Source: Bacteroidota bacterium
Lineage (GTDB): Bacteria > Bacteroidota > Ignavibacteria > Ignavibacteriales > Melioribacteraceae
Assembly: GCA_018829205.1 (NCBI GenBank)
Contig: JAHJUE010000035.1
Location: forward strand, 62,001 to 126,000
DNA length: 64,000 nucleotides
Direction: 5' to 3'
Shown: positions 53,465 through 61,595 of the stretch, piece by piece
Layout: each line of letters starts with the position of its first letter
How positions within the stretch are numbered: position 1 is the first letter of the stretch
Position numbers and translations under genes: made by a program
The notes under the pieces: generated by a model
The model's input: the letters and a program-made list of their open reading frames with translations, nothing else
Databases searched by the model: none
Told to the model about the DNA's origin: nothing

Positions 53465-54088
53465 CTACTTTTTTATTTTAGAAAAAACAAAAAGCATCTC
53501 TCTTGCGATCTGCTCAACGCGTTCGTCATATTTTTCTTCTTCCTGATTTGTACCGTCAAATACTTTGGGATCTTCGTACCGGATCGGGAATCTTTTATCG
53601 GCGCCGAAAACTACTGGACAATTTTCATCCGCGTCGGAGCATGTCATAACTGCGGCGAAATCTTTTTGAGGATTAAACAGGTCATTATAAGTTTTTGAAA
53701 AGCACTTTAACGGCTCCGAGTTTTCGGAATAATAAACAAGATATACTGGATTATCGGAATTATCTTTTTGTTCTATTTTAAATCCTGCTTTTTGCATCGC
53801 ATTTACAGCACGCGTATTAAAAGCAGTGGCTTCTGTGCCTCCAGAATAACATTTAACATTCTTAATCCCAAAATATTCAGCAGCAGCCTGAGCCCAAATT
53901 TGACTAATGTGACTCCTTCGTGAATTGTGAGTGCAAATGAATGTTAAATTTATTTTCTTATCTTCTTTTAATTTTCCTGATATATATTCTGCAAAAGAAA
54001 TTAATAGTTCCTTTCTATCGGGATCTATTCGGTTAAACTGTTTTTTTAGTTCATCAGTTTTATTTTGAATAGTTTTTAATACCGCCAT
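53465..54088 (-). CDS. arsC: Thioredoxin-type arsenate reductase (LMW phosphatase family)
   Basis: 207 residues. P-loop CTHNSRRSHISQ supplies the first Cys of a C-x5-R low-molecular-weight phosphatase, and CSDADENC gives two Cys spaced as the B. subtilis ArsC pair that pass the disulfide to thioredoxin. Thus arsenate is reduced to arsenite. The N-terminal ~45 residues (LKTIQNKTDELKKQFNRIDPDRK) extend beyond the usual size. Last gene of the ars operon. Confidence 0.88.
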   Translation of the reverse strand: MAVLKTIQNKTDELKKQFNRIDPDRKELLISFAEYISGKLKEDKKINLTFICTHNSRRSHISQIWAQAAAEYFGIKNVKCYSGGTEATAFNTRAVNAMQKAGFKIEQKDNSDNPVYLVYYSENSEPLKCFSKTYNDLFNPQKDFAAVMTCSDADENCPVVFGADKRFPIRYEDPKVFDGTNQEEEKYDERVEQIAREMLFVFSKIKK

Positions 54089-54108: not shown

Positions 54109-54810
54109 TTAAAATGTAGTAAGGATTAAATATACTCCCCCAAACAAGACAAGAATTCCGCAAATTCTTTTAATCCAAATAATGGTTTTTGATCCTTCAC
54201 TCCAGTTCAAATATTTCTGAATCTTGCCGGCAAGTGTTCCGGCTCCGACAATTACCGCGCAGTGACCTAAACCGAAAGCCAATAGAAACATAACCGAAAG
54301 TAAATAGTTTGTTTGGGCAGTTTGAAAAACTACTCCAAGCACAGGAGCCATATAAGCGAAAGTACACGGACCGAGAGCAATTCCGAATAATAAACCAAGT
54401 ATTAACGCTGCTAGGAGTCCTTTAGTTTTTGTATGCCGAAATCCGGCGGAATTCCAATCAAGTTTTATTATGTCGAGTAAATAAAGTCCGACCAAAAAGA
54501 AAATGCCTGCTACAAAATAATTACCGTAAACGCCCACATCCCCCATCAATCTGCCGAGCGACGCTGTGATTAATCCTATCAAAGCAATAGTAATTAAAAT
54601 CCCAATTGAAAAAATCAGAGATATATTAAAAGTTCTGCCAACAGATATTTTCCCTTGCAAGCTTATAAAGCCTACAACAAGGGGTATGCTTGAAAGATGG
54701 CATGGCGAAAGTAATATTGATAATATTCCCCAAGCAAATGAAGCAAGTAATGCAATCCAAATTGCGCCGGTCATTGCTTCGTATAATGATGTAAACAAAC
54801 CTTCAAACAT
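54109..54810 (-). CDS. ccdA: CcdA-type thiol-disulfide membrane transporter
   Basis: 233 residues, six membrane helices. Two conserved Cys are in LSPCHLSSIPLVVGF and LGPCTFAYMAPVLG; these form the electron-relay pair of CcdA/DsbD proteins that move reducing power from cytoplasmic thioredoxin to the periplasm. Its place inside the ars operon, next to an exported thioredoxin, suggests a relay for arsenic-related thiols; the link is inferred. Confidence 0.9.
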   Translation of the reverse strand: MFEGLFTSLYEAMTGAIWIALLASFAWGILSILLSPCHLSSIPLVVGFISLQGKISVGRTFNISLIFSIGILITIALIGLITASLGRLMGDVGVYGNYFVAGIFFLVGLYLLDIIKLDWNSAGFRHTKTKGLLAALILGLLFGIALGPCTFAYMAPVLGVVFQTAQTNYLLSVMFLLAFGLGHCAVIVGAGTLAGKIQKYLNWSEGSKTIIWIKRICGILVLFGGVYLILTTF

Positions 54811-54993: not shown

Positions 54994-55416
54994 TTATCCC
55001 TTCGCTTTTAATCCTTTACCTTGCAGTACTTTATCAATTTCCGCTTCAGGATAAAATCCTTCATGCCTGTGAAATTCTTTCCCGTTTTCATCAAGAAAAA
55101 CTTGAGTTGGAATTAATCTGATACCGTATTCTTGACCGTATTTTTTTTGATCTTCTTTCCAAACATCATAAAAAACAACTTTAATCTGTTCACCGTACTT
55201 TTCTTCAATAGCTTTCATTACAGGCTGCATTTGTTTGCAGGGAATACAATTAACTGAACCGAGTTCTACAAATGTAACTTTCGCTTTTACAATTTCTTTT
55301 GTTTCTTTAATTTCTTTACCGCTTTGCGCTTCACATCCGTTTGATAAAAACACTAAAATCAATACTGCCGTTAACAATTTTTGAATGATTGAATAAGTTT
55401 TTACTTCTACTGTCAT
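54994..55416 (-). CDS. Exported thioredoxin-like protein (CIPC)
   Basis: 140 residues. A signal peptide or anchor ends near SNGCEAQS (a weak lipobox-like LSNGC is possible). The thioredoxin domain has the redox motif NCIPCKQM and cis-Pro in LIPTQVFLDENGKEFHRHEGF. It would act outside the cytoplasm and accept electrons from the CcdA protein encoded next. It begins one base after the small thioredoxin gene before it. Confidence 0.85.
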   Translation of the reverse strand: MTVEVKTYSIIQKLLTAVLILVFLSNGCEAQSGKEIKETKEIVKAKVTFVELGSVNCIPCKQMQPVMKAIEEKYGEQIKVVFYDVWKEDQKKYGQEYGIRLIPTQVFLDENGKEFHRHEGFYPEAEIDKVLQGKGLKAKG

Positions 55417-55417
55417 T

Positions 55418-55657
55418 TTATTCTCCGATTAACCAATTTAAAATTTGTTCGTCCTTAGGAATTACGCCAACACTTTTAACTTTTTCATTTATTACAAGAC
55501 CGGGAGTCATCATAATACCGTATGTCATCATTTCATTAATGTCTGTTATTTTTTCAACGTTTGCATCTACGTTATTTCCAGTCACAATATCTCTTACTTT
55601 CTGTTCAAGTGTCTGACATTTTTTGCAGCCTGTTCCAAGTATTTTTACCGATATCAT
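55418..55657 (-). CDS. Small glutaredoxin-like thioredoxin (CKKC)
   Basis: 79 residues, cytoplasmic. Redox motif GTGCKKCQTLEQ, with MMTPGLVINEKVKSVGVIP including the cis-Pro. This matches the 'small redox-active disulfide protein 2' family, often found beside ArsP/DUF318 permeases and arsenic genes. It is the second of two such genes in the operon. Confidence 0.9.
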   Translation of the reverse strand: MISVKILGTGCKKCQTLEQKVRDIVTGNNVDANVEKITDINEMMTYGIMMTPGLVINEKVKSVGVIPKDEQILNWLIGE

Positions 55658-55701: not shown

Positions 55702-56787
55702 TTACGGACATACATCCGGCGCTTCCACATTGCCTCTTTCAACGTCACCTTTAAAATATTTTTTCTGAAGCCATAAGGCCACATTAACTAAAGCTATTAA
55801 AACCGGGACTTCAACCAGAGGTCCGATTACCGCGGCAAACGCTTCGCCGCTATTAATTCCGAACACTGCAATGGCAACCGCAATAGCTAATTCAAAATTA
55901 TTGCTGGCGGCTGTGAATGATAGTGTAGCGGTTTTGGAATAATCGGCGCCGACTTTCTTTCCCATATAAAAAGAGACAAAAAACATTATCACAAAATAGA
56001 ATACTAACGGAATAGCAATTCTAACAACATCAAACGGAATTTTTACAATGTACTCGCCTTTAAGCGAAAACATTACAATAATTGTAAATAGCAGGGCTAT
56101 TAATGTTATCGGACTGATACGCGGTATAAATTTCTTTTCGTACCATTCTTTTGATTTTACTTTTAGCGCAGCATATCGTGTTATCATTCCTGCAAAAAAC
56201 GGAATACCAAGATAAATAAAAACGCTTTCAGCTATTTGACCGATTGTTATATCAACCGCGAAAGTCTGAAGTCCGAGCCATGACGGAAGTACTGTTAAAA
56301 ACACATAAGCGTAAACTGAAAAAAATAATACTTGAAATATAGAGTTAAACGCGACTAATCCGGCGGCGTATTCCGTATCCCCTTTCGCTAATTCATTCCA
56401 GACAATTACCATCGCGATACATCTTGCTAGTCCAATCATTATCAGTCCAGCCATGTATTCAGGATAATCCTGCAGGAATATTACCGCGAGAACAAACATC
56501 AGCACCGGACCGATAAGCCAATTCTGAATTAACGAAAGAGAAAGTATTTTAACATTTTTAAATACATCGGGGAGTTCTTCATATTTCACTTTAGCAAGCG
56601 GTGGATACATCATTAATATTAATCCGATTGCTATTGGAATATTGGTAGTGCCCGATTGAAATGAATTCCAGAAATCTACAACACCGGGAAACATGTAACC
56701 GGAAAAAACTCCTATAAACATTGCGAGAAAAATCCATAGTGTTAAATATCTATCTAAAAAAGAAAGTTTTTTTGTAAGTCTACTCAT
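55702..56787 (-). CDS. acr3: Arsenite efflux transporter ACR3
   Basis: 361 residues, ten membrane helices. Conserved transport Cys in [19 protein letters not shown] and Glu in [15 protein letters not shown], the two key residues of ACR3. It exports As(OH)3 in exchange for protons. It is flanked on both sides by small thioredoxin genes in an operon with arsC and arsR. Confidence 0.95.
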
Positions 56788-56854: not shown

Positions 56855-57094
56855 TCAAGATTCCATAAGCCAATGCATTAACGTTGATTTTGTAGGAATC
56901 TTTCCCTGACTAAGAATTTTATTATTTACTATCAGTCCCGGAGTAATCATTATCCCCAAATCAGCGAACTTGTTTATATCAATTACTTTTTCAATTACCG
57001 CGTCAATATTATTTTCACTTATCACTTCTTTGCACAAAGCTTCCAGCTTCAAACAATTCGGACATCCGCTGCCAATAACTTTAATGTTTTTCAT
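56855..57094 (-). CDS. Small glutaredoxin-like thioredoxin (CPNC)
   Basis: 79 residues, paralogue of the CKKC protein. The redox motif is GSGCPNCLKLE, and the cis-Pro in MITPGLIVNNKILSQGKIP. Two paralogues with different active-site dipeptides and thus perhaps different redox potentials lie on either side of acr3. This copy is 60 bases downstream of the permease gene. Confidence 0.9.
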   Translation of the reverse strand: MKNIKVIGSGCPNCLKLEALCKEVISENNIDAVIEKVIDINKFADLGIMITPGLIVNNKILSQGKIPTKSTLMHWLMES

Positions 57095-57154
57095 TTTATT
57101 ATCCCATGAAACTTTGTAACTGATTTTATTAGGTTGAACCGGATATTATTATAA

Positions 57155-58456
57155 TTAGAATAAATTTCCGTAAATCAATCCTGTTATTGTTGACATAGCA
57201 ATCACTAATGAAACAAAAACTACTGTTTTCTGCGTACCTATCACACTTCTTATAACGAGCATATTAGGAAGTGATAATGCGGGTCCCGCGAGCAGCAATG
57301 CTAAAGCCGGCCCTTTTCCCATTCCGTTATTAATTAATCCTTGTAGGATCGGTATTTCGGTTAAAGTCGCGAAATACATAAACGCTCCCGCAACCGACGC
57401 GAATAAATTTGAGAATAATGAATTACCTCCAACTAATGCGGCTATCCATTCATTCGGAATAATTCCTCCGCTGCCTTCTGCAGAACCTAATAAAAATCCC
57501 GCGACAAGAACTCCGGCGCCGAGTAAAGGCATAATCTGTTTAGTGAATCCCCATGTTTCACCCAGCCATTGATTTGGCTCGCCTTCGGAAAATGTTAAAA
57601 CAATTGTCGTGGCAGCGACTGCGACAACAAAAGGAATTAAAGGGTTTGAATAGAAAATCACTGCAGCGATAATAACCGCGGCGGTTCCAATTAATACAAA
57701 AAGTTTTTTTGCTTTGACAATGAATATCATTGACAGCGCAAAGCCGAATCCAAACAAACCTGTAATAAACCATTTGTTGACAAACATAAAATTCCAGAAT
57801 CCCTCTTGCGTATCCGGTTTTCCCCAATTAACAAAAACAAGAATTGCCACAAGAATAAAAAAATGAAGCGCCGTTTGCCAAATTGGCCGCGGTTCCTCAA
57901 CTTCTGGCATCGCAAGCTGCGCGTCGGCTCTTTCTTTTTCTTCCTTGCGATAAATGAATGACATAATTAAACCAATCAATACACTGAATGTCACGGCTCC
58001 TATAACTCTCGCGATTCCAAGTTCAAATCCGAGTATTCTCGCTGTAAGAATAATTGCTAATATATTAATTGCCGGGCCTGAATATAGAAACGCTATTGCC
58101 GGACCCAAGCCTGCTCCCCTTTTATGTATGCTTGAAAATAAAGGCAGAACTGTGCATGAACAAACAGCCAGTATAGTTCCTGATACCGAAGCAACAAGAT
58201 AAGCAACCCATTTTTTAGCCTTGCCGCCAAAATATTTTATAACAGATGCCTGACTTACAAATACCGCAATAACGCCTGCTATAAAAAACGCGGGAATTAA
58301 ACAAAGCAAAACGTGTTCCTGAGCGTACCATTTAGCTAGATTAAAAGCATCAATAACAGCGTTCTTAAATATTTCGGATTCAATCGGCATAAAGTACGCG
58401 AAAAGAAAAAATCCCGATATCCACAAAAAACTTTTATACTCTTCTTTCCAATTCAT
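57155..58456 (-). CDS. ArsP/DUF318-family permease
   Basis: 433 residues with about eight to ten membrane helices. The family core CSCTVLPLFSSIHKRGAGLGPAIAFLYSGPAINILAI is clear, and a second copy of the pattern (MGKGPALALLLAGPALSLPNML) occurs in the C-terminal half. Some members (ArsP) export trivalent organoarsenicals; others are uncharacterised. The CSC motif in helix 3 is the likely metalloid-binding site. Just upstream lies a candidate ArsR operator. Confidence 0.88.
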   Translation of the reverse strand: MNWKEEYKSFLWISGFFLFAYFMPIESEIFKNAVIDAFNLAKWYAQEHVLLCLIPAFFIAGVIAVFVSQASVIKYFGGKAKKWVAYLVASVSGTILAVCSCTVLPLFSSIHKRGAGLGPAIAFLYSGPAINILAIILTARILGFELGIARVIGAVTFSVLIGLIMSFIYRKEEKERADAQLAMPEVEEPRPIWQTALHFFILVAILVFVNWGKPDTQEGFWNFMFVNKWFITGLFGFGFALSMIFIVKAKKLFVLIGTAAVIIAAVIFYSNPLIPFVVAVAATTIVLTFSEGEPNQWLGETWGFTKQIMPLLGAGVLVAGFLLGSAEGSGGIIPNEWIAALVGGNSLFSNLFASVAGAFMYFATLTEIPILQGLINNGMGKGPALALLLAGPALSLPNMLVIRSVIGTQKTVVFVSLVIAMSTITGLIYGNLF

Positions 58457-58468
58457 AATATCTCTTAA

Positions 58469-58490
58469 TAATTCGTTATACGACGAAATG
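58469..58490 (-). promoter_or_regulatory. Second ArsR-operator-like palindrome (before permease)
   Basis: On the minus strand: CATTTCGT, six bases, ACGAATTA. The left half is identical to that of the site before arsR, with the same 6-base spacing. It lies just upstream of the permease start, between it and the end of arsR, so it could give an internal control point. Confidence 0.55.
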
Positions 58491-58505
58491 TCTTATAAAA
58501 ATATT

Positions 58506-58850
58506 TTAAATACCGCAAAGTTTATTTCTATCCAATTTTTGTACTTTAATTTTGTCGTTGATAATTGTTTGTTCATCATTAATCCAAAAATCAAGAGAGG
58601 TTAAAATTGTGTTTATCCTTGGATCGGATGGATGCTGATTAATTAAATAATTCACCCACTTTCCTTCCTTCTGTTCAACTATAAAACCCGATTCTTTTAA
58701 TATTTTAAGATGCTGCGAGACTGTAGAATTTGCAAGATCTAGAAGTTCTCTAATTTCACATACACATAAAACCCTTGTCTGAAGAGCTTTTAAGATTCTT
58801 AATCGGTTGGGATCCGATAATGCCTTAAATATTTTTGTTTTGTCTAACAT
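58506..58850 (-). CDS. arsR: ArsR/SmtB-family metalloid-responsive repressor
   Basis: 114 residues with a winged helix-turn-helix (DPNRLRILKAL, ANSTVSQHLKILKESGFI). The metalloid motif VLCVCEI in helix 3 holds two Cys spaced as in the ELCVCDL arsenite site of classical ArsR; a Cys near the end (LCGI) may add a third ligand. It represses its own operon until arsenite binds. First gene of the operon. Confidence 0.93.
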   Translation of the reverse strand: MLDKTKIFKALSDPNRLRILKALQTRVLCVCEIRELLDLANSTVSQHLKILKESGFIVEQKEGKWVNYLINQHPSDPRINTILTSLDFWINDEQTIINDKIKVQKLDRNKLCGI

Positions 58851-58865
58851 AGTCTAAAATAGTCT

Positions 58866-58887
58866 CATTTCGTTTACTCACGAAATG
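58866..58887 (-). promoter_or_regulatory. Candidate ArsR operator at the arsR promoter
   Basis: CATTTCGT, 6 bases, ACGAAATG: a perfect 8-bp inverted repeat. It overlaps the -10 element of the arsR promoter, ideal for a repressor. A related site lies before the permease gene. Confidence 0.65.
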
Positions 58888-58912
58888 TATGGTTAATTAT
58901 TTATTATGTCAA
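58884..58912 (-). promoter_or_regulatory. arsR operon promoter
   Basis: On the minus strand TTGACA (perfect -35, bases 58907-58912), 17-base spacer, TACATT (-10, 4 of 6, bases 58884-58889). The operator palindrome overlaps the -10. The arsR start is about 34 bases downstream. Confidence 0.65.
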
Positions 58913-59073
58913 ATAAAAAATAATTTTACGGCAGTGCTTTCTTTATAATGCGGTGTATCGGGATCTTTCAGAACTTATTCGAGGAAATTCCACCATTTTA
59001 TGAAAATCGAACTAACTTTTAATTTTCATAAAAATATTATCCAATTTGGTATTGTGATTTTATATATTTGTGC

Positions 59074-59373
59074 ATGAAAAAAATGCTTTTAATTATTTTG
59101 ATTCTCGTTGTTTATCATCAGATTGCAATAGGAAATGAAAATATCGATTTTACGTATAATCCTGTATTTGAAGTTTTAGATTGCTGCGATAGCGAAAACG
59201 ATAAAAAATGCTGTGAAAATATCTGTACATGTTTTTGCTGTACAAATTTACCGGCCGATTTTAATATAATTACTATTAATATCAATTCTAACAGTGAAAT
59301 TTCAATCCTAAATTTTAATCAGAAATTTAATTCCAACCATTTCCAGAATCATTGGCAGCCTCCGAAATATTAA
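59074..59373 (+). CDS. Cysteine-rich exported small protein
   Basis: 99 residues from ATG (an in-frame TTG is two codons earlier). Signal peptide MKKMLLIILILVVYHQIAIG. Residues about 36-60 carry eight Cys (VLDCCDSENDKKCCENICTCFCC), then a beta-like tail ending in HWQPPKY. It resembles short exported proteins with CxCxCC clusters and a W-x-PP ending that sit just before TonB receptors in Bacteroidota, possibly metal-binding. Function is unproven. It lies 57 bases before the receptor gene and divergent from arsR. Confidence 0.7.
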   Translation: MKKMLLIILILVVYHQIAIGNENIDFTYNPVFEVLDCCDSENDKKCCENICTCFCCTNLPADFNIITININSNSEISILNFNQKFNSNHFQNHWQPPKY

Positions 59374-59429
59374 AATTACAGCTACTTACCTACATTCAAA
59401 ATATTCTAAATTTTAATCGGAGATTTATA

Positions 59430-61595
59430 ATGATTCGTAAACTCATTCTATTAATTTATCTGTTATTTAATACATATATTATCGCACAAAACAGTATATC
59501 GGGAAAAGTGCTGGATCACCATTCAGGTGAACCGATTCTTGGCGTTAACGTAATTTTTTTAGATACAAATATCGGAACCGCCACCGATGATGAAGGCGCG
59601 TTTTTTCTTACCAATATCCCGGAAGGAAAATATATACTTAGATTCTCGCACATCAGCTACGATGAATACGAAGTGCAAATAACTATCCCTTTTACAGGTG
59701 AAAATCTTGTTGTTGAACTTGATTCGGAATCCGAAGAACTTGAGGAAGTTTATGTTAACGCTACCCGTTCTTCCAGAACAATTGAAAATGAGCCGACGCG
59801 CGTTGAGGTAATTGCCGGTGAAGAAATAGAAGAAAAAATAAATATGGACCCTTCCAATATTTCTATGGTGCTTAACGAAAGTACAGGAATTCAAGTTCAG
59901 CAGACATCGGCGGCAAGCGCGAACAGTACATTCAGAATTCAAGGTCTCGACGGCAGATATACACAATTATTAAAAGACGGGTTCCCATTGTTCGCCGGTT
60001 TTTCAGGGAGTCTTAGTATTATGCAGGTCCCCCCTCTTGATTTAAGTCAAATAGAAATTATAAAAGGAAGTTCATCCACCCTTTACGGCGGCGGAGCAAT
60101 AGCAGGACTTGTAAATTTAATTTCAAAACAGCCCGGAGAAAAAAGAGAATTATCATTTTTAATTAATGGAACTTCGGCGTTAGGACTTGATCTAAGCGCA
60201 TATTATTCCCGCAGAAATGATAAATACGGTTTTAAAGTTTTAGCATCCAGAAATACGCAAAAAATATACGATAATAATGATGATAATTTTTCCGACCTGC
60301 CTCAAGTGGAAAGATATAGCCTTAATCCTGATTTTTATTTTTATTTTGGAGAAAAAAGTACACTTAGAGTCGGCGGTATTTTTTCTTTTGAGGAAAGAAT
60401 CGGCGGGCATGTTGATGCGGTCGGCGGTAATAATAACAGCAATAATTTTTATGCTGAAAAGAATAATAGCGGCAGATTCGCATCGCAAGTTCAATATACC
60501 TATTCGGGAGTAAATAATTCATTTACGTTTAAGAACAGCATCTCGGTATTTAACAGGAAGTTATCACTCCAAAATTATACATTTGAGGGGAAACAGTTTT
60601 CAACATTTACCGAAGCGGTTTATAAAATTATAAAGGGAAATTATGATTGGCTATTCGGCGTTAATTTATACACTGAGGATTTTAATGACGAAAGCGATGT
60701 AATTTTAAATAGAAGTTATACGGATATTACATACGGCGCCTTTGTTAATAATATTTTTGATATCAATAAAACTCTTTCATTAGAAAGCGGATTACGTTTT
60801 GATTATAACAATGATTTCGGCTTTCTTCCACTTCCAAGGATTAATCTTTTAATTAAATGGAATGAAAAATTAAGCAGCAGGATAGGCGGCGGATTCGGCT
60901 ACAAAATTCCTACTATATTTACCGAAAAATCGGACGAACTTTCTTTTAGAAATATTATTCCGGTTAACACAAAAAATACAGAAGCCGAAAAGTCATTAGG
61001 GTTTAATCTTGATCTAAATTATAACACTATCATATTTGATAAATTTACTTTTTCCGTTAACAATCTTTTCTTTTACACAAGAATTAATAATCCGCTGTTT
61101 CTTAATTTCAACAATTCGAATAACTATTATGAATTCTTAAGTTATGACGGTTATTTTGATACAAAAGGATTAGAGACAAATTTAAAATTAACATATGGTT
61201 ATTATAAATTATTCGCCGGTTATACTTTTACCGATGTAAAAAGCCATTCCGGAGGTGTAACATCCGGATTTCCGCTTACACCCAAACATAAATTAGGATT
61301 AGTATTAATGTATGAAGTACATGGAAATTTACGTATAGGTGTTGAAGCATATTACACTGGGAAACAGAGTTTAGAAGACGGTACAGCTACTACCGATTAT
61401 TGGATGAATGGATTAATGATAGAAAAAAGATTCGGCAATTTTTCATTGTTTATTAATTTTGAAAATTTCCTCGATACAAGGCAGTCGAAATTCGGCCCGA
61501 TGTATTCAGGTTCTTTTGAATCTCCAAAATTCGCGGAACTTTATGCCCCGACCGATGGCAGAATTATAAATGGCGGAATTAAAATAAATCTTTAA
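59430..61595 (+). CDS. TonB-dependent outer-membrane receptor
   Basis: 721 residues from the ATG with CGGAG ahead. Signal peptide ends near YIIAQ. Residues ~20-105 form a carboxypeptidase-regulatory-like domain (SGKVLDHHSGEPILGVNVIFLDTNIGTATDDEGAF), then a TonB plug (VEVIAGEEIEEKI, GIQVQQTS, FRIQGLDGRYTQLLKDG, GSSSTLYGGGAIAGLVNL) and a beta barrel. No TonB box is certain. Substrate is not clear from sequence; neighbours (Cys-rich exported protein, ars genes) suggest metal or cofactor uptake. Confidence 0.9.
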   Translation: MIRKLILLIYLLFNTYIIAQNSISGKVLDHHSGEPILGVNVIFLDTNIGTATDDEGAFFLTNIPEGKYILRFSHISYDEYEVQITIPFTGENLVVELDSESEELEEVYVNATRSSRTIENEPTRVEVIAGEEIEEKINMDPSNISMVLNESTGIQVQQTSAASANSTFRIQGLDGRYTQLLKDGFPLFAGFSGSLSIMQVPPLDLSQIEIIKGSSSTLYGGGAIAGLVNLISKQPGEKRELSFLINGTSALGLDLSAYYSRRNDKYGFKVLASRNTQKIYDNNDDNFSDLPQVERYSLNPDFYFYFGEKSTLRVGGIFSFEERIGGHVDAVGGNNNSNNFYAEKNNSGRFASQVQYTYSGVNNSFTFKNSISVFNRKLSLQNYTFEGKQFSTFTEAVYKIIKGNYDWLFGVNLYTEDFNDESDVILNRSYTDITYGAFVNNIFDINKTLSLESGLRFDYNNDFGFLPLPRINLLIKWNEKLSSRIGGGFGYKIPTIFTEKSDELSFRNIIPVNTKNTEAEKSLGFNLDLNYNTIIFDKFTFSVNNLFFYTRINNPLFLNFNNSNNYYEFLSYDGYFDTKGLETNLKLTYGYYKLFAGYTFTDVKSHSGGVTSGFPLTPKHKLGLVLMYEVHGNLRIGVEAYYTGKQSLEDGTATTDYWMNGLMIEKRFGNFSLFINFENFLDTRQSKFGPMYSGSFESPKFAELYAPTDGRIINGGIKINL

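Follow-up and report, generated by a model that had tools for sequence, protein, structure and literature searches.

The window analysed here, i.e. a stretch of 64,000 nucleotides from a bacterium of the family Melioribacteraceae (phylum Bacteroidota; contig JAHJUE010000035.1, positions 62,001 to 126,000), contains an arsenic resistance operon whose regulatory gene, arsR, is flanked by two predicted operators for its own product, the first at the arsR promoter (op1) and the second just behind the arsR stop codon (op2). The reading that we consider probable is that ArsR blocks initiation at op1 and, at op2, acts as a roadblock to RNA polymerases that have leaked past the first site, no second promoter being involved; binding, roadblocking, and release by arsenite are steps that we infer from the sequence.

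Two predicted ArsR operators around arsR

The op1 sequence, CATTTCGT-N6-ACGAAATG, overlaps the -10 hexamer TACATT of the minus-strand arsR promoter, and op2 (plus strand, TAATTCGT-N6-ACGAAATG) is located after the arsR stop codon (58506-58508) and before the ATG of the permease gene (58456; Table 1). The spacing is the same in both sites, one half-site is identical, and the other half carries mismatches at 2 of the 16 positions. The original prediction, in which a TTGACA-17-TACATT promoter is overlapped by a dyad and a second site with equal spacing and one identical half-site stands before the permease gene, was confirmed in both parts.

Two matches to the motif with up to three mismatches were found in the window (mean in shuffled sequences, 0.47), and because 12 of 100 shuffles also gave at least two, op2 carries no significance from the window alone; nor was op2 by itself listed in an inverted-repeat scan of the window. 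The exact op1 motif occurs once in the whole genome (4.59 Mb), and up to two mismatches give three places, namely op1, op2, and one within a 408-codon open frame. With up to three mismatches, 20 places were found, fewer than the 26 of a reversed control, which indicates that the motif is not widespread in the genome. This search had been proposed together with the original prediction, and many unrelated occurrences, the outcome that would have counted against it, were not seen, so that it is not refuted. A genome-wide regulon was considered and rejected: the exact motif is present in 2 of 296 genomes of the phylum (the window's own and G022), before arsR in both, and the reversed control gave 1 of 296. 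Both op1 and op2 are real sites, the latter being established by the tests on relatives described below.

Conservation of op2 among relatives

At 29 orthologous loci from the same family and order (59-75% identity), the site before arsR was found in 28, and a site just behind the arsR stop codon was found in 27 of the 28 with enough sequence. The gene that follows op2 varies, encoding an ArsP_1 permease, ACR3, a thioredoxin, or a putative ArsC-like or methyltransferase-like protein. Several of the same-family loci are identical in arsR to loci on Melioribacteraceae contigs (L008/L037, L009/L046, and L031/L047), in line with placement of the host in this family of the order Ignavibacteriales.

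A discovery set of 110 arsR loci (80 named loci added) was reduced to 102 by the removal of 8 duplicates, and 64 of these carry the op1 motif; one lacks downstream sequence, leaving 63 that were scored for op2 using a symmetric profile trained on op1, with thresholds set as quantiles of 5162 control windows. An op2 scoring above the 99% control quantile was detected at 50 of the 63 loci and one above the 99.9% quantile at 46. The same rule was applied to a hold-out of 66 later loci, from which 26 were removed as >90% identical to an earlier locus; op1 was present in 37/39 and op2 in 35/40 of the remainder. These hold-out loci are related to one another and belong to the same order as the window, as do many of the training loci. 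Autoregulation combined with an internal operator, as originally proposed for the window, is thus supported, since most relatives retain both sites, each at a constant position with respect to arsR.

The profile score of op1 exceeds that of op2 in 47 of 50 loci, a figure subject to bias, op1 having served to train the profile; a count of symmetric positions is free of this bias and gives 8.14 of 11 pairs for op1 and 6.78 for op2. The lower symmetry of op2, together with the varying next genes, would suit a relic of an earlier promoter-operator left after an exchange of the genes behind arsR, but decay would not predict the hold-out result, in which op2 is retained and its distance from the stop codon varies little; we regard this explanation as very improbable. 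It is barely credible that op2 is instead an mRNA hairpin acting in processing, stability, or attenuation rather than an operator. The imperfect dyad does lie in transcribed RNA, and conservation of one of its 10 pairs slightly exceeds that in shuffles (P 0.04); the other nine show no pairing above shuffled partners, op2 matches op1 in the sequence itself and not in pairing alone, and no Rfam match at gathering scores was found in 57000-59500.

Further operator-like sites occur upstream of some arsR genes. At locus L021, the promoter segment with op1 is present as a tandem duplicate, with two identical sites 49 bp apart, and extra sites were found upstream of the arsR start at -858 in L020, -872 in L147, and -164 and -563 in L086. 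Because no op1 is detectable directly before arsR in L020 and L147, their arsR genes may be read from a promoter before an upstream gene. Among viral contigs, there was one relative.

Position of op2 and lack of an op1-type promoter

Both sites are present at 82 loci. Of the op1 copies, 77 retain the TA of the -10 box and 24 have a -35 hexamer with at least 5/6 matches; the corresponding numbers for op2 are 10 and 0. The gap between the arsR stop codon and op2 has a median of 14 bp (quartiles, 11-15) and lies within 11-17 bp in 59 of the 82 loci, whereas the following start codon lies anywhere from -35 to 203 bp away from op2. op2 thus appears to be tied to the arsR stop codon, whatever gene comes next, and the narrow gap would suit a polymerase that is stopped once it has just completed the arsR frame. 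An antisense promoter at op2 was also considered; a mirrored -10 TA in 24/82 and a -35 (at least 5/6) in 2/82 loci were unconvincing.

These results place op2 inside a transcribed unit and without an op1-type promoter, although a weak internal promoter is possible. Such a promoter, located in the 3' end of arsR with its -10 overlapping the stop codon and repressed from op2, would give the resistance genes an ArsR-controlled promoter of their own. Promoter-like pairs with at least 9/12 matches do stand before op2 in 14/82 loci, compared with 2.6% of 492 windows inside arsR; the window carries TAGAAA-16-TAAAAT at 58530-58503; and at the conserved Asp-Arg, the Asp codon is GAC in 30/67 cases, compared with 171/576 elsewhere. 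However, the stop codon makes up most of the -10-like part, the -35-like part coincides with the conserved Asp-Arg codons, and -35-like hexamers (at least 5/6) are equally common in loci without op2 (12/33) and with op2 (24/81). The same criterion of at least 9/12 gives 52/82 at op1, and the window's own match is no more than the region would give by chance (four found; 3.0 in shuffles, standard deviation 1.8). We therefore judge a dedicated internal promoter to be rather unlikely.

Another possibility is that ArsR dimers bridge op1 and op2 (~390 bp apart) in a DNA loop that tightens repression of a single promoter. Two operators do flank a gene of fairly constant length, and roadblocks of other repressors can be strengthened by looping, according to the available text of PMC10310618. 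Looping is decidedly improbable here, as the spacing of op1 and op2 is not helically phased (R of 0.11, 0.07, and 0.05 at 10.0, 10.5, and 11.0 bp; P of 0.51, 0.76, and 0.88, respectively) and a loop would leave both the tight gap behind the stop codon and the T-run described in the following section unexplained.

T-run in front of op2

Many of the gaps between the arsR stop codon and op2 contain a run of T on the coding strand, e.g. TAA-TTTTTTTATTGAT-op2 in locus L026 and TAA-AATATTTTTATAAGA-op2 in the window. A T-run of at least five within 22 bp before op2 was found in 24 of 50 discovery loci (A-runs, 8); of 1002 gene ends elsewhere in these loci, 73 have one. The hold-out gave T-runs in 16 of 33 loci and A-runs in 9. 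In the pooled data, it is present in 49 of 96 loci with op2 and in 5 of 41 without op2 (Fisher P 1.8e-5), four loci with only a diverged op2 standing outside both groups, and in 44 of the 49 it ends 6-8 bp before op2. When gaps of 10-20 bp were shuffled with their T content (53%) kept, T-runs appeared in a mean of 19.2 of 74 and in at most 28 in 5000 shuffles; the observed number was 45.

The 30 nt before the T-run contain no hairpin beyond background (median -2.3 kcal/mol, n=51, vs -1.9 inside arsR, n=255; P 0.62), and this order of parts is therefore not an ordinary intrinsic terminator. An intrinsic-terminator scan of the window returned one terminator-like match, which is op1 itself, overlapping the promoter. 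Of the two features of terminators of the RNA polymerase I (Pol I) type, a T-rich stretch before the protein site was found in about half of the loci and an RNA hairpin was not found. We also considered, and rejected, the T-run as a part of the operator that assists DNA bending: T-runs of at least five are present upstream in 40/82 and downstream in 4/82 loci (A-runs, 16 and 17, respectively), and an upstream run is present at only 6 of 50 op1 sites.

Same layout with other operators and in other phyla

The main op1 motif is absent from 37 loci, of which many are from Desulfobacterota and 12 have a related but different op2-like site behind arsR, compared with 0.5% of control windows; these rates are partly circular, because the consensus was picked after inspection of those loci, and a few of the 37, L020 and L050 among them, are in fact members of the main class. 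Several of the 12 have T-runs.

A panel of 17 other ArsR/SmtB loci was searched with no assumed motif, and ten Bacillota or Listeria relatives of the positives were added to give 27. In 3 of the 17 (Sporosarcina, Paenibacillus, and Lactiplantibacillus), the upstream dyad of the locus itself is repeated 10-16 bp behind the stop codon; one panel locus, L184, had been noticed by eye before this test. Each of these three carries a T-run of 5-7 immediately behind the stop codon; no run of at least five within 22 bp is present in the other 14 panel loci. The ten chosen relatives gave four repeats scoring 16 to 20 of 20, i.e. Priestia twice, Bacillus arachidis, and Cytobacillus, and two of these four have a T-run of 7 within 22 bp of the stop codon. 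One Priestia repeat lies 32 bp behind the stop codon with six T before the site, and that of Bacillus arachidis lies 38 bp behind it without a run of five. The match in L183 (score 16) was not counted because it lies inside the next gene, and the best match in L202 is partly over its T-run. No repeat of the upstream site behind arsR was found in the panel loci of E. coli K-12, Acinetobacter, Staphylococcus aureus, and others. Operators of the ATTTCG, ATCAA, and ATAGAC kinds thus have this order of parts in common. At L187, on a Pantoea plasmid, a perfect palindrome, CACATTCGATCTATCGAATGTG, which is not a repeat of the upstream region and is possibly an operator or a hairpin, stands ~13 bp behind the arsR stop codon.

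Proposed action of ArsR at op1 and op2

One ArsR protein would thus serve two operators flanking its own gene. On op1, it would cover the -10 box and block initiation, as the overlap of the two indicates; a polymerase that leaks through would transcribe arsR and then encounter the op2-bound protein ~14 bp after the stop codon, to be stopped or released there. The repressor would continue to be synthesised, but not the products of the permease, ACR3, and reductase genes, and arsenite would remove ArsR from both sites. Since there would be two gates before the resistance genes but a single one before arsR, efflux should show less background expression than arsR and respond more steeply. In the original prediction, the internal operator could tune downstream genes in a general sense; the missing op1-type promoter, the linkage to the arsR stop codon, and the T-run, none of them noticed at that time, narrow this to a proposed roadblock.

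The T-run may aid the stalling or release of the polymerase, as at Pol I terminators. A possible, more specific reading, which we put forward tentatively, is that the order stop codon, T-run, ~7 bp, and operator constitutes a ligand-gated, hairpin-free terminator in which the active site is halted in or near the T-run, as with Reb1 and Pol I, until arsenite lifts the block. If so, transcription would run to the end of an autoregulator gene but not on into its operon, and because at least three unlike operator sequences and more than one phylum are involved, the arrangement would be a general module of ArsR-type operons. Since a hairpin is missing, the bacterial T-run may only strengthen the stop, with release left to Mfd or Rho.

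Several observations weigh against the two-operator roadblock. No op2 was detected at 13 of the 63 discovery loci with op1, a T-run of five is absent from about half of the op2 loci, and 19 of the 27 panel loci have no sign of a second site (score of at most 14/20). The promoter-like pairs with a -10 near the stop codon, one of which is present in the window, are enriched before op2 as described above. Finally, the related loci are not independent.

Genes of the ars operon

The arsR product is a winged helix-turn-helix protein (NF033788, 88.8 bits, cut-off 55; PF01022, 61.8 bits, cut-off 22) that has the Cys-x-Cys of helix 3 found in E. coli ArsR, with the cysteines as putative As(III) ligands. 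Residues C29, C31, and C112 are invariant in 28/28 orthologues, and all 82 two-operator loci encode a Cys-x-Cys together with a Cys within the last 12 residues. Besides the helix 3 Cys-Val-Cys, the invariant C112 near the C-terminus is a possible third As(III) ligand; in E. coli ArsR, unlike the protein described here, the third Cys lies in helix 3. Solved structures of the ArsR family represent 17 distinct sequences, none of which was used in the argument.

Downstream of arsR, the operon encodes efflux functions (ACR3 and ArsP_1) and an ArsC-like protein, which arsC models match below their cut-offs (Table 1). Two genes are divergent from arsR, encoding a small Cys-rich protein with no Pfam or NCBIfam match (59068-59373, plus strand) and a TonB-dependent receptor (59352-61595, plus strand).

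Table 1. Predicted regulatory sites and genes of the ars operon in the window
Feature	Position	Strand	Remarks
-35 box of the arsR promoter, TTGACA	58907-58912	-	TTGACA-17-TACATT, 10/12 consensus matches
-10 box, TACATT	58884-58889	-	Overlap; fused to the outer edge of op1
op1, ArsR operator (predicted)	58866-58887	-	Perfect dyad 8+8, spacer 6 bp; CATTTCGT-N6-ACGAAATG
arsR, ArsR/SmtB family regulator	58506-58850	-	114 amino acids; Cys-Val-Cys and C-terminal Cys; NF033788, PF01022
Gap between arsR stop codon and op2	58491-58505	-	15 bp; T5 run at 58497-58501 (plus strand, A-run)
op2, second ArsR operator (predicted)	58469-58490	-	No op1-type promoter; proposed roadblock
ArsP_1 family permease	57155-58456	-	243.8 bits, cut-off 32.3
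MTH895/ArsE family thioredoxin-like protein	56855-57094	-	81 bits, cut-off 62
ACR3 arsenite efflux transporter	55702-56787	-	465.8 bits, cut-off 282.8
Second MTH895/ArsE family thioredoxin-like protein	55418-55657	-	101.2 bits, cut-off 62
Thioredoxin-domain protein	54994-55416	-	Thioredoxin_2, 55.1 bits, cut-off 27
DsbD_TM membrane protein	54109-54810	-	44.4 bits, cut-off 27.1
ArsC-like protein, low molecular weight phosphatase domain	53465-54088	-	LMWPc, 27.1 bits, cut-off 23.2

Comparison with known systems

Roadblock repression and an engineered second ArsR site are already known, and it is the natural, conserved version that appears to be new; in the open literature searched, outside which most subscription papers lie, no description of a naturally occurring, conserved arrangement with a second operator behind arsR was found. 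CmtR of Mycobacterium tuberculosis is reportedly, going by a title alone and with the arrangement not compared, an ArsR/SmtB autorepressor with multiple operator sites.

In roadblock repression by LacI, PurR, GalR, CcpA, and CodY, the repressor site is likewise located downstream of the promoter in the transcribed region, and E. coli ArsR is listed among the proteins that block elongation in the available text of the same source (PMC10310618). Because op2 lies behind the repressor's own gene, the regulator itself would escape the proposed block, unlike in those cases. Autoregulated resistance operons face a conflict in that the repressor can be made only if its gene leaks, whereas costly genes should stay off, and one extra operator would solve it.

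A likeness to the termination of Pol I by Reb1/Nsi1 is provided by the non-template T-rich stretch just before the site of the roadblock protein. As described in the parts of PMC12366685 available, the polymerase is paused by the roadblock 15 bp short of the protein's site, within a T-rich stretch that promotes backtracking and lowers read-through. That system is eukaryotic and its release needs an RNA hairpin, of which none was found here, whereas the block in the window would be lifted by a ligand. If the T-run matters, these operons would contain a bacterial repressor-gated terminator resembling Pol I termination, and the order of stop codon, T-run, and operator could serve as a sequence rule for finding more of them.

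The closest design is an engineered one. In an arsenic biosensor, a second ArsR site downstream of arsR lowers the background in E. coli (Stocker 2003, cited in Merulla 2013, PMC3918153), and the construct, as the available text presents it, resembles the window in having arsR under autoregulation and followed by a further ArsR site. The biosensor was built by hand from E. coli parts, whereas the layout in the window is natural and conserved at many loci, where op2 keeps a set spacing from the stop codon and is often preceded by a T-run; the engineers of arsenic biosensors have arrived at a design similar to this one.
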